From the NCBI GenBank assembly GCA_902601895.1, contig CACKOU010000002.1, positions 1-64,000 of the forward strand: DNA of 64,000 nucleotides. The letters are read 5' to 3'. The notes under the pieces were generated by a model. It searched no databases. It was not told the origin of the DNA and was given only the letters and a program-made list of their open reading frames with translations. The translations under genes were made by a program, and so were the position numbers. The stretch's first letter is position 1. Every line of letters begins with the position of its first letter. This document shows positions 2,027 through 16,705 of the stretch, in pieces. The stretch comes from an uncultured Pelagibacteraceae bacterium (GTDB taxonomy: Bacteria > Pseudomonadota > Alphaproteobacteria > Pelagibacterales > Pelagibacteraceae).

Positions 2027-2200
2027 ATGAAAATAAAAATACAATCAATAAAAAACTTTTTTAAATCAAAAGAAAAAAGAGGTTTAAAACCTATATTTTT
2101 TGAAAGTATAGGAAATCATAGGACACCAAGAGATATTAAGCTTAAAAACCTTATAAAAGTTTTAGAAAAAAATGGTTTTGTAATAAAAAATAAAAAATAA
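2027..2200 (+). CDS. Small basic protein, 57 residues
   Basis: A short frame begins at an ATG preceded by a strong ribosome-binding site (AAAGGAG, 4 bases before the ATG). The product is Lys-rich: MKIKIQSIKNFF, then EKRGLKPIFFESIG and a helical C-terminus ending in FVIKNKK. It has no Cys and no clear transmembrane segment. Confidence comes mainly from the ribosome-binding site, which is better than most in this window. The stop codon overlaps the first hairpin of the structured segment that follows. Function unknown. Confidence 0.55.
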   Translation: MKIKIQSIKNFFKSKEKRGLKPIFFESIGNHRTPRDIKLKNLIKVLEKNGFVIKNKK

Positions 2201-2510
2201 AAAATTTCTGTTGAAATTTTTAACATAACCCATACATTAGTAATTGATAAAGATTTAATTCTTATCTAATGATGGGCTAAGCATAAACTCTAGCTTTCTC
2301 AGAGTTTATACTTAGCCCTTCGTTGAACTTTATCGAAGACCTACTCCGTAGCAGTTGCTAATGCGAGATTCGGAATGAGAAGTTCTAATAATTAGCTCTT
2401 TATCCTTTGAAATAAACCAATTTAAGAACCTTTGGTTTTTATTGGCATGAGAAAGCAGTTATTAGGTTTTTTCTACCCTTTTAAATCTAAGGTTCAGAAA
2501 GGATAGAAAA
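2200..2510 (+). ncRNA. Candidate structured RNA / cis-regulatory leader
   Basis: This 310-base gap is filled with complementarities. Hairpins: 2200-2208 with 2213-2221 (9 bp); 2229-2240 with 2266-2276 (11 bp, one bulged A); 2274-2291 with 2301-2318 (18 positions, one C/A mismatch); 2318-2322 with 2334-2338; 2349-2352 with 2357-2360; 2411-2420 with 2432-2443 (2-base bulge); 2469-2481 with 2498-2510 (one C/A mismatch). Loops also pair at a distance: 2293-2300 with 2449-2456 (8 bp) and 2426-2432 with 2489-2495 (7 bp, loop to loop). GGG at 2274-2276 can join either of two stems. It is probably an untranslated leader of the regulator gene or an independent RNA. I do not recognise it as a known class. 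Confidence 0.55.
2469..2510 (+). promoter_or_regulatory. Hairpin sequestering the ribosome-binding site of the next gene
   Basis: TTTTCTACCCTTT pairs with AAAGGATAGAAAA at 12 of 13 positions around a 16-base loop. The right arm contains the ribosome-binding site (AAAGGA, 2498-2503) and the A of the start codon. A second, perfect 8-base complement of the same site (TATCCTTT) lies at 2401-2408, so two upstream segments compete for it. This suggests control of translation initiation of the ribbon-helix-helix-like gene; no ligand or trigger is visible. Confidence 0.5.
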
Positions 2511-2725
2511 TGGCAGATCCATTAAAATATAAATCAATATCGATCCATATTGATTGTTACAAAAAAATAGATGAATTAACAAAAACTCTTGTTCCAGGAG
2601 TAGCAATCTCGAGAGCTCAAGTAGTTAGAATGTTAGTTAATCTTGCAAATGACAAATATAAACAAGAGGTAATAGAAGAAATAAATCCTTATACAGCTGC
2701 CGACCAAAAGTGGGAGGTTAACTAA
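2510..2725 (+). CDS. Ribbon-helix-helix-like small regulator
   Basis: The 71-residue product has a short strand (SISIHIDCYKK) followed by two helices (KIDELTKTL; SRAQVVRMLVNLANDKY), which fits the ribbon-helix-helix fold of CopG/Arc-type DNA-binding proteins. Such proteins bind operators as dimers, often in their own promoter. It heads an operon in which every gene overlaps the previous one, and its stop shares a base with the next start (TAATG). Its ribosome-binding site lies inside a hairpin, so its translation may be regulated. The fold assignment comes from the pattern only. Confidence 0.55.
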   Translation: MADPLKYKSISIHIDCYKKIDELTKTLVPGVAISRAQVVRMLVNLANDKYKQEVIEEINPYTAADQKWEVN

Positions 2726-2883
2726 TGGATAAAATACATGAGATTAGAGTTGAAGAAGTAAGAGATATAGAGGAGGGTAGACATTTCTATAGAGTTTATA
2801 TGGAGATAAATGAAACAATTAAGATTATAGGAGAGTCAGAAACAAAACCTCAATTAATAAGATACATATCGGAGGTATATTAA
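2725..2883 (+). CDS. Small hypothetical protein, 52 residues
   Basis: A short frame exactly fills the space between the regulator and the nuclease, overlapping both by one base (TAATG at each junction). A GGAGG ribosome-binding site precedes its start, inside the end of the upstream gene. The product is acidic and probably strand-rich in the middle (HFYRVYMEINETIKIIGES). Perfect tiling within the operon makes it credible despite its length. Function unknown; it could be an accessory of the nuclease. Confidence 0.6.
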   Translation: MDKIHEIRVEEVRDIEEGRHFYRVYMEINETIKIIGESETKPQLIRYISEVY

Positions 2884-3593
2884 TGACTATAGAATATTCA
2901 TTTTCACCTTCTGAGCTTGATTATAAAGCCAAGAAATGCTCAAGATGTTTTTATATTCATAAGCATAACAAAATTAATCCTGGAGATAGACCACCTCCAG
3001 TTTTTTCAAGTTTTGATGCAGTTCAAAAACCTTATTTTAAAAAAACAAATACAAAGTCTTGGTGCGACGACCTTCCAGATGGTGAGATTATGGATAGTAA
3101 TGAACTACCGGGCAAAATAGTATCTGAAGGTTTAGTTGATGATAAACAACGTAAATTTATCTTAGCTGGTAATCCTGATATTGTTATAAAATTTAAAGAT
3201 AAAAGTTTCGGAATAGTTGATTTTAAGACAACAGTAATTTCTTTAGATAAAGCTGAAAATTATAGGTTTCAACTGGAGGCTTATGCGCAAATATTTTCTA
3301 GCCCTGGATCAACCAAAAAAGCCAAAACACCAAAACTAAGTCCTATAACCCACATGGGTATTTTGCAATTTTATCCAGAAGAAATCACAAGCCATACTGA
3401 TCATGATTGTGATTTAAAAATGAAAACATCTTATTCCGCACTTAATAGAGATGAGAGTGGTTTTTATAATTATATAACTAAGTTAATAGATTTATTGGAG
3501 CAACCTAATATTCCAAGCTTTAACAAAGATTGTAATTTTTGCAATTTTACCAAAAAACAAATTGATTTGGGAGAACATCAAAATGAAAAATAA
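2883..3593 (+). CDS. PD-(D/E)XK nuclease, Cas4/RecB-like, with two Cys pairs
   Basis: The N-terminus (FSPSELDYKAKKCSRC) matches the start of AddB/Cas4-like nucleases. The core follows: Asp99 in GNPD, Asp113 and Lys115 in IVDFKTT (D-x-K), and Gln130/Tyr134 in QLEAY, which is motif IV of the RecB-like branch. Cys19/Cys22 and Cys217/Cys220 could together hold an iron-sulfur cluster or zinc, as in Cas4 and AddB; Cas4 usually has one N-terminal and three C-terminal Cys, so this 2+2 arrangement differs. Known relatives cut or resect single-stranded DNA ends. No Cas1, Cas2, CRISPR repeat or helicase is nearby, so a CRISPR role is not supported. The host pathway is unknown. Confidence 0.8.
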   Translation: MTIEYSFSPSELDYKAKKCSRCFYIHKHNKINPGDRPPPVFSSFDAVQKPYFKKTNTKSWCDDLPDGEIMDSNELPGKIVSEGLVDDKQRKFILAGNPDIVIKFKDKSFGIVDFKTTVISLDKAENYRFQLEAYAQIFSSPGSTKKAKTPKLSPITHMGILQFYPEEITSHTDHDCDLKMKTSYSALNRDESGFYNYITKLIDLLEQPNIPSFNKDCNFCNFTKKQIDLGEHQNEK

Positions 3594-3858
3594 ATTAGAT
3601 GAAATAATCAAAGAAAGATTAGAAAATAGACTCGAGTGGAGAAATTATCTTGGATGGTCTTTGACTCACAGAGATTTATATAGAAATGCTAAAAAAGAAT
3701 TTTATAAAGATAAACCTGTATTGGATCTTATTTTAAAATTGTATTTTCTTCCTTATAACACCATAAAGTATTTTAGTTATATTTGTGATCGTCATAAATT
3801 TGAAATGATTGAAACTGAAATAAGAATGTTACAAGAAAATAAAGATGAAAAAAAATAA
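3583..3858 (+). CDS. Hypothetical protein, 91 residues
   Basis: I chose the ATG at 3583, which overlaps the end of the nuclease gene by 11 bases and has GGGAG 9 bases upstream; an ATG 21 bases earlier has no such site. The product is helical, rich in Lys, Arg and aromatic residues (NRLEWRNYLGW, LYRNAKKEFYKDK), with a hydrophobic centre (LDLILKLYFLPYNTIKYF) that is short for a membrane helix. It has no recognised domain. Its place inside the nuclease operon suggests a linked role. Confidence 0.55.
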   Translation: MKNKLDEIIKERLENRLEWRNYLGWSLTHRDLYRNAKKEFYKDKPVLDLILKLYFLPYNTIKYFSYICDRHKFEMIETEIRMLQENKDEKK

Positions 3859-4231
3859 TAAAGATTTTAATAGAAACCCCAACGGATCCAACCAATGGAT
3901 CTTAAGATCAAATGAAGAAATACAAAAAATAATTGATAAGTATCCTAAATATTGGACAAAAAAAGATTTCAGAGGTGAAGGAAAGAATAATAAAAATAGA
4001 ATACTTACTAGAAAAGAAACAGAGAGAATGGGCTTAATTTTTGGAAATATAGGAGGGATAAAACAATATAACAGTGGAAAATTAAAATGTTCTATGTGTG
4101 GAGAATTTAAGGGTCTAGATGATTTTCCTGATGATAGATATGGTTCTTCCAATGGGAAAAGAAGCAATTGTTCAACCTGTGATGTATTAAGAAACAAGAA
4201 ATATAGAGAAAGCTTGAAAGAAAATAAGTAG
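3845..4231 (+). CDS. Zinc-ribbon protein of phage HNH-associated type
   Basis: The 128-residue product has a basic N-terminal half without known motifs and a C-terminal zinc ribbon: Cys82, Cys85, Cys109, Cys112 with the pattern K-C-x2-C-x5-G-L-x2-F and a final basic helix (RNKKYRESLKENK). The same kind of ribbon ends the truncated protein at the left edge of the window. Such ribbons accompany HNH or endonuclease VII-like domains in phage proteins, but the HNH catalytic motif is not visible here. It overlaps the preceding gene by 14 bases and closes the operon. Confidence 0.55.
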   Translation: MKKNNKDFNRNPNGSNQWILRSNEEIQKIIDKYPKYWTKKDFRGEGKNNKNRILTRKETERMGLIFGNIGGIKQYNSGKLKCSMCGEFKGLDDFPDDRYGSSNGKRSNCSTCDVLRNKKYRESLKENK

Positions 4232-16630: not shown

Positions 16631-16705
16631 GCGGGCATAGCTCAGTGGTAGAGCGTCTCGTTGCCAACGAGAAGGTCGTGGGTTCAAGTCCCATTGCCCG
16701 CTCCA
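16631..16705 (+). tRNA. tRNA-Gly (GCC)
   Basis: A full cloverleaf is visible: acceptor GCGGGCA pairs with TGCCCGC, the D arm is GCTC..GAGC, the anticodon stem is TCTCG/CGAGA around loop TTGCCAA, and the T arm is GTGGG/CCCAT around TTCAAGT. The anticodon GCC reads glycine codons GGC and GGU. The discriminator is T and CCA is encoded. The FkbM start codon lies 5 bases after the CCA. Confidence 0.97.

Follow-up and report, generated by a model that had tools for sequence, protein, structure and literature searches.

The 64,000 nucleotides analysed here (the window) belong to a SAR11 genome in which a small nuclease operon is preceded by a gap of some 300 nucleotides, lying between a 57-aa ORF (2027-2200) and the 71-aa ORF that opens the operon. 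The question this locus raises is whether the gap encodes a structured RNA and, if so, what such an RNA might do ahead of these genes. SAR11 genomes are streamlined and contain little intergenic DNA; keeping a conserved leader of about 265 nt therefore comes at a cost, and the element probably matters. The stretch from 2245 to 2509 is read as the 5' leader of the operon; its features are collected in Table 1.

Table 1. Coordinates of the leader, its parts and the operon in the window
Feature	Position	Strand	Basis or remark
Promoter TTGAAA (2211-2216), 16 nt, TACATT (2233-2238)	2211..2238	+	pattern scan
Structured leader RNA, whole element	2245..2509	+	fold z -5.0; type-A covariance-model match
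P1 5' strand GATAAAGA	2246..2253	+	pairs with 2397-2404; direct reading
P2 long hairpin	2274..2318	+	arms 2274-2291/2301-2318, mismatch C2282-A2310, apical loop 2292-2300
PK1 5' strand GCTTTCTC (P2 loop)	2293..2300	+	perfect complement of 2449-2456; p 0.006 for window
Variable central domain (P3 region)	2319..2396	+	replaced between types; covarying stem in type A
P1 3' strand TCTTTATC	2397..2404	+	pairs with 2246-2253; direct reading
P4 hairpin CCAAT..AAGAACC ttt GGTTTTT..ATTGG	2417..2445	+	fold prediction
PK2 5' strand GAACCTT (P4)	2426..2432	+	pairs with 2489-2495
PK1 3' strand GAGAAAGC	2449..2456	+	perfect complement of 2293-2300
P5 hairpin pairing ribosome-binding site AAAGGA (2498-2503)	2469..2510	+	fold
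PK2 3' strand AAGGTTC (P5 loop)	2489..2495	+	pairs with 2426-2432
71-aa putative ribbon-helix-helix protein, first gene	2510..2725	+	two-helix model, mean pLDDT 66
52-aa conserved small protein	2725..2883	+	ORF list, conservation
PD-(D/E)XK nuclease	2883..3593	+	Pfam PF12705 E 6e-6; PHROG 298 exonuclease
91-aa conserved protein, no assigned function	3583..3858	+	ORF list, conservation
Endonuclease-VII-like HNH protein	3845..4231	+	PHROG 1035 E 9e-8

Extent of the leader

The minimum free energy of 2200-2510, computed like all folding energies here without pseudoknots, is -81.7 kcal/mol, against -57.3 +/- 4.8 in dinucleotide shuffles (z -5.1, none of 100 as low), and the energy lies far from that of the shuffles in every full-length type of leader. 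The first-pass annotation had described a densely structured RNA that heads the nuclease operon and extends over the whole of 2200-2510. The dense structure is borne out by this energy and by covariation in relatives, but the start is not, the RNA probably beginning near 2245 with a promoter upstream. I infer a start near 2244-2246 from the computed position of this promoter; the count of promoter patterns by itself is not above chance, and TTGA and TATATT, 16 or 17 nt apart, are found at the same position before the leader in other types. All hairpins and loop complements listed in the annotation are present in the gap, but two of the features, the hairpin at 2200-2221 and the CCC (2229-2231) suggested as an alternative partner of the GGG, are probably outside the RNA, since they lie upstream of or inside a promoter of conserved position.

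Nothing in Rfam 15 matches the leader or the leaders of relatives at the gathering threshold, which upholds the initial impression that the RNA belongs to no known class; elsewhere the same search found only tRNA and RNase P. A permissive Rfam scan of 1900-2800 gave only a chance-level match in the gap, and neither ARAGORN nor Rfam detected a tRNA or tmRNA in the leader, the only hit being a tRNA-Gly at 16631. Two candidates were rejected: a Cripavirus IRES match (20 bits, gathering 44.5) as chance, and the guide RNA of IscB or TnpB (omegaRNA), as the neighbouring proteins match neither.

Relatives and sequence types

Searches that took the 71-aa protein and its alignment as queries identified over 20 distinct loci in the Pelagibacteraceae, and in nearly all of these relatives a leader of 250-300 nt is located upstream of the first gene. 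The leaders fall into at least six sequence types: A (L172-L175, L177-L180, L187, L189, L196, L075), B (L176, L181, L182, L188, L074, L200), C (the window and L170), D (L171), E (L186, L198) and F (L183), in addition to reduced forms (L184/L185, L199). The reduced leaders of L184/L185/L191 and L199 have no long P2 loop and fold near the shuffled level (z -0.8 and -1.8). The nearest genome (G198, AG-900-G16) carries a copy of the gap with 100% identity and is identical over the first 5 kb save for one base, and therefore gives no covariation information; apart from this copy, only short AT-rich chance matches turned up when related genomes were searched with the gap at the DNA level.

R1, a covariance model derived solely from type A, matches the window at 2252-2510 over model positions 1-301 and stops at the start codon, with 25.4 bits and an E-value of 5.6e-6 for 901 bases with filters off, this and other R1 E-values being rough due to a shortened calibration. 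With speed filters on, R1 misses the window in a 404-kb search. It matches types D, E and F from end to end under default filters, and L188 of type B at 20.6 bits with filters off. On 397 genomes the model located two further loci (L203 and L204), one of them in another genus. The leader of the window groups with types A to F by its full-length match to the type-A model, ending at the start codon, and by a P2 loop that pairs upstream of the ribosome-binding-site hairpin (PK1). Among the loci examined, copies of the leader occur solely before this operon. Judged by sequence comparison, the leader is a new RNA family with clear covariation.

Architecture

The types have one computed architecture in common, consisting of a closing helix (P1), the long hairpin P2, a variable central domain, a hairpin with GAACC (P4) and a hairpin that hides the ribosome-binding site (P5). 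P1 occupies the same position in both type A and type B, its pairs in type A vary on one side only, and it competes with a local hairpin (2246-2250/2262-2266). P2 is the 18-position stem of the first-pass annotation, recovered with one C-A mismatch, and by local folding all the full-length types share its layout, in which 7-9 bp are followed by one mismatch, usually by 2 bp and another mismatch, and then by 6-9 bp, often with an AUAUA or UAUAU core. Across types, 11 of 16 pairs in P2 show compensatory changes, and the covariation score was reached by none of 500 shuffles. The GAAC hairpin is also present in the other full-length types, type E excepted. The ribosome-binding site is located in the 3' arm of P5 in types A to E, with arm sequences that differ, and P5 is weak or absent in type F and L199. 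The energy of the P5 end is unusual on its own in types A, D and E, not in B and C, and that of the Shine-Dalgarno hairpin is ordinary in the window alone (55 of 200 shuffles as low).

Within types, the covariation points the same way. In type A, 70 pairs show 94.2% pairing, 12 pairs have compensatory changes and the score was reached in 0 of 500 shuffles, while slid controls are 32-48% paired; in type B the corresponding figures are 64 pairs, 94.7% and 4 compensatory pairs, two of which are in PK1. A shorter complement, 2325-2330/2380-2385, is kept without variation in L170, the only relative of the same type as the window. All three outcomes that had been named beforehand as counting against the RNA turned out otherwise: covariation is present, the energy is not at the level of shuffles and there is no match to an Rfam class.

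Two long-range pairings

The pairing of the P2 loop with 2449-2456, noticed early as a perfect complement, is confirmed across types. The strand that best complements the P2 loop sits 53-61 nt ahead of the start codon in 10 of 12 loci (at -72 in type D and -88 in type E). The pairing is 7-12 bp long, with p between 0.0035 and 0.043 in all tested loci except L172 (0.12), and it is found at the same place in most types despite unrelated sequences: GCTTTCTC/GAGAAAGC in the window, AGACCTACA/TGTAGGTCT in L188, GACTTGCA/TGCAAGTC in L200 and TACTTTCTTT/AAAGAAAGTA in L171. L203 and L204 serve as an out-of-sample check, as R1, with which they were located in the 397 genomes, does not contain PK1. They pair TTACTGACCA/TGGTCAGTAA and TTTATTGACCA/TGGTCAGTAAA over 10-11 bp at -57 (p 0.0035 and 0.0045), with C-G and A-U pairs in place of the U-A pairs of type A. 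From these compensatory changes, PK1 appears as a genuine pseudoknot, in every full-length type examined.

PK2, which would join P4 to the loop of P5, is backed less evenly than PK1. Its perfect complement in the window, as first reported, is there, but at 7 bp it is not significant in the window alone, where a T-T mismatch splits the 13-bp helix seen in L170 (p 0.004). Most members of type B reach 9-12 bp (p 0.001-0.007), L182 being one mismatch short, with 6 bp and p 0.06; type E has 11 bp (p 0.003), and the pairing is weaker in type A and absent in type F. In types B, C and E, P4 and P5 can form a duplex of 7 to 13 bp, which in type B captures the strand masking the Shine-Dalgarno sequence. 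In L170, L188, L200 and L198 this duplex is predicted to be about as stable as the two hairpins or slightly more so, and elsewhere less stable than the separate hairpins, which makes a two-state switch possible.

Energy alone does not fix the strand, as the opposite strand of 2200-2510 folds equally well (z -5.9). The + strand is favoured by the position relative to the ribosome-binding site and by G-U pairs retained in relatives; in type A they replace Watson-Crick pairs on this strand (UA:6 UG:6, GC:6 GU:6), which argues for RNA rather than DNA palindromes. If the constraint were instead on the DNA, and RNA hairpins were mimicked by the inverted repeats of operators, an origin or a recombination site, the equal folding of the other strand would be expected, and P2 and P5 of type A indeed match the minus strand too, most types have a TATATA-like core in P2, and a putative DNA-binding protein is encoded alongside. 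However, a DNA palindrome has no need of G-U pairs, PK1 joins a loop to a strand 150 nt away and P5 overlaps the ribosome-binding site, and I consider a DNA element the most improbable of the alternatives.

Replacement of the leader between strains

Identity between leaders of different types is about 42-60%, where a shuffled control gives 41-50%. Between the window and L171 (AG-894-N17), the tail of the 57-aa ORF is 89% identical, the first gene 93%, the 52-aa gene 96%, the nuclease 98% and the next gene 97.5%, while the leader in their midst has just 44-55% identity, near the random level, with its architecture retained. Similarly, L180 and L183 share 96% of the first gene and 60% of the leader. 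By these comparisons, the leader is exchanged as a unit between strains with its shape kept. The combination of a strict architecture with allele-like replacement of the sequence is unusual for a bacterial leader and suggests a specificity under diversifying selection.

A ligand-binding riboswitch, with the variable central domain as aptamer and P5 as expression platform, would suit the leader position and the SAM-II-like element that these loci carry ahead of the 57-aa ORF, a sign that riboswitches are used nearby. Unlike an aptamer, however, the central domain is unconserved between types, and no Rfam riboswitch matches, so that such a riboswitch is quite improbable. As a metabolite riboswitch the leader was also rejected on its identity between types, which is at or near the shuffled level with no conserved aptamer core.

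The protein encoded directly after the leader in L203 and L204 lacks the putative ribbon-helix-helix domain and is followed by a 53-aa and a 90-aa protein. The leader is thus tied to the operon and not to this domain, and a dependence on the domain was rejected. The ribbon-helix-helix identity of the 71-aa protein, and with it the early designation of this protein as a regulator, finds no confirmation in the databases searched: it has no Pfam match, and none was obtained in a PDB sequence or fold search.

L034 (G158:C1) lacks the leader along with the beginning of the first gene and retains the 57-aa ORF and the next small ORF; its junction carries a ATCTTGCAAA stretch, which occurs again ahead of the type-D leader and within the gene. 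At L203:194-1438, in the other genus, leader and operon directly follow a gene reading as rpoD (sigma-70), which suggests a different insertion site.

Genomic neighbourhood

Neighbours of the operon in relatives include genes for C5 methyltransferases, AIPR/MzaE with DUF4420, a DUF4011 helicase-nuclease, SNF2 and methylases, and the region has the appearance of a variable defence island that includes parts derived from phages. Different sets of defence-type genes are observed upstream of the same module: SNF2/ParB/methylase, DUF4420/AIPR/C5-methylase and DUF4011 helicase (L058:3048-7886 in G198, L171:221-4268 and L186:182-4510).

Annotated phages gave no match, and viral searches with the first protein or the nuclease as lone query returned nothing. 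With the alignment as query, pelagiphage-like contigs were found to carry homologues of the first protein, and in one of these (L124) the downstream ORF reads, by inspection, like a PD-(D/E)XK exonuclease. The long leader was not seen upstream of the pelagiphage-like homologues in the regions inspected, and two DNA patterns of the leader yielded nothing in IMG/VR apart from one chance match in unrelated sequence. The viral contigs L089-L168 have genes for the same protein, here of 56-62 aa, with a short leader, TCCTATATG near the promoter and an apparent small hairpin over the ribosome-binding site.

The 57-aa ORF is conserved beside the leader; it ends in LIKVLEKNGFVIKNKK and has a weak match to PHROG 353 'toxin' (E 0.046). 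Before it, at 1966-2027 of the window, lies a SAM-II/SAM-V-like riboswitch, GUCC UGAUUUAG ... GGAC ... CGCUAAAGGAG, which is also present in L172:4351-4422, L182:4443-4520 and others (16 distinct copies) and has P1 altered to GUCUG/CAGAC in L073. Its matches to Rfam SAM_alpha are below gathering (20 bits, E 0.022 in L182; 17.4 bits in the window). One idea is that a SAM sensor with genes for methyltransferases and abortive infection as neighbours might respond to the SAM lyase of a phage.

In L172-L175, L177-L180, L184, L187, L189 and L193, repeats like TAGAGCAGAGCCCTGAAAA occur upstream of the leader, at most a few hundred nt away. They resemble part of the tRNA anticodon arm; L174 has a truncated tRNA-like sequence, and a tRNA-Thr is located beside L188. 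Possibly, these repeats and tRNA sequences are attachment sites of a tRNA-targeting island.

A candidate mechanism and its rivals

The reading I favour, with a probability of roughly 0.6, is that the leader represents a new family of RNAs that act in cis to control how the operon is translated, with a pseudoknot set against a hidden ribosome-binding site. Transcription would start near 2245, and the leader would form the 5' part of the operon mRNA. P1 would close a domain holding P2 and the variable domain, the loop of P2 would reach 150 nt downstream and form PK1 just 5' of P5, and P5 would hide the Shine-Dalgarno sequence. Through a strand of P4 complementary to the P5 loop, an alternative P4:P5 pairing could form, and the folding of the leader, by PK1 and P4:P5 pairing, would decide between translated and silent mRNA. 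The P2 loop could be the contact for a partner in trans, be it an antisense or phage RNA or a protein. Structure, covariation, the promoter position, the placement of the ribosome-binding site within a hairpin and the operon context are computed here; I infer that translation is controlled, in which direction the switch works and that a partner acts in trans.

In plasmids of the IncI type, a hairpin in the repZ leader pairs through its loop with bases that adjoin the masked ribosome-binding site farther downstream, and the system has a leader peptide, repY, and an antisense Inc RNA. Control by antisense RNA of this kind would be a special case of the favoured reading with the partner named: the P2 loop would be the target, and loop swaps would make new incompatibility groups. 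As in repZ, the apical loop of P2 pairs just upstream of the masked ribosome-binding site, and the loops diverge while the architecture stays. The gap (2200-2510) has no listed ORF of at least 40 aa, and consensus scans of the window and L180, which are weak evidence in such AT-rich DNA, found no antisense promoter over the leader or near P2. I regard antisense control as unlikely, if the least so of the alternatives.

A further variant is a fast-swapping RNA lock of satellite or defence islands in SAR11, in which the P2 loop and central domain recognise RNA from phages or rival elements and thereby open or close the operon. Strains would then swap entire leader alleles to keep pace with new phages and retain the knotted frame, but I consider this doubtful. 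Equally doubtful is a noncoding RNA acting in trans for the mobile or defence island, as a decoy, guide-like or packaging RNA, that is transcribed before the operon by chance. Its large compact fold, long-range pseudoknot and wholesale swapping while neighbouring genes stay 89-98% identical would be in keeping with such an RNA, as would the adjoining phage-like exonuclease and endonuclease VII and the restriction and abortive-infection genes upstream in relatives. However, in every relative the leader stops at the start codon of the gene whose ribosome-binding site it pairs, it was not found away from the operon in the loci examined, and a scan of the window detected no terminator inside it.

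Comparison with known systems

In abundant ocean bacteria, a new RNA family with covariation is here tied to a nuclease operon near restriction and abortive-infection genes. The structured RNAs described from Candidatus Pelagibacter ubique, the rpsB, rpsL and ffh motifs and SAM-V (PMC2704228), come from the same bacterial group and are likewise 5' leaders, some with pseudoknots, but precede housekeeping or methionine genes.

Similar in anatomy are leaders of type I toxin-antitoxin mRNAs. The timP leader of enterobacteria (timPR) has a hidden ribosome-binding site and a covarying pseudoknot of 7 bp that is essential for translation (PMC11228461), and in the structure computed here a pseudoknot between distant stem-loops is again combined with a hidden ribosome-binding site. 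Whereas timP encodes a small membrane toxin with TimR as antitoxin RNA, the present operon encodes a charged putative DNA-binding protein and nucleases. The tisB leader of Escherichia coli is structured, with a masked ribosome-binding site and a far-upstream pseudoknot needed by the ribosome, and depends on processing as well as on a standby site that is single-stranded and lies about 100 nt upstream (PMC7708055); the computed leader resembles it in being highly structured, with a masked ribosome-binding site and a pseudoknot upstream. The combination of a masked ribosome-binding site with an upstream covarying pseudoknot, as in type I toxin-antitoxin mRNAs, is therefore present in the computed structure, but in place of a small hydrophobic toxin there is a charged protein of 71 aa with two predicted helices, whose sequence is not that of a membrane peptide. 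By likeness of anatomy, with no sequence relation known, the leader may work in the way that the timP and tisB leaders do.
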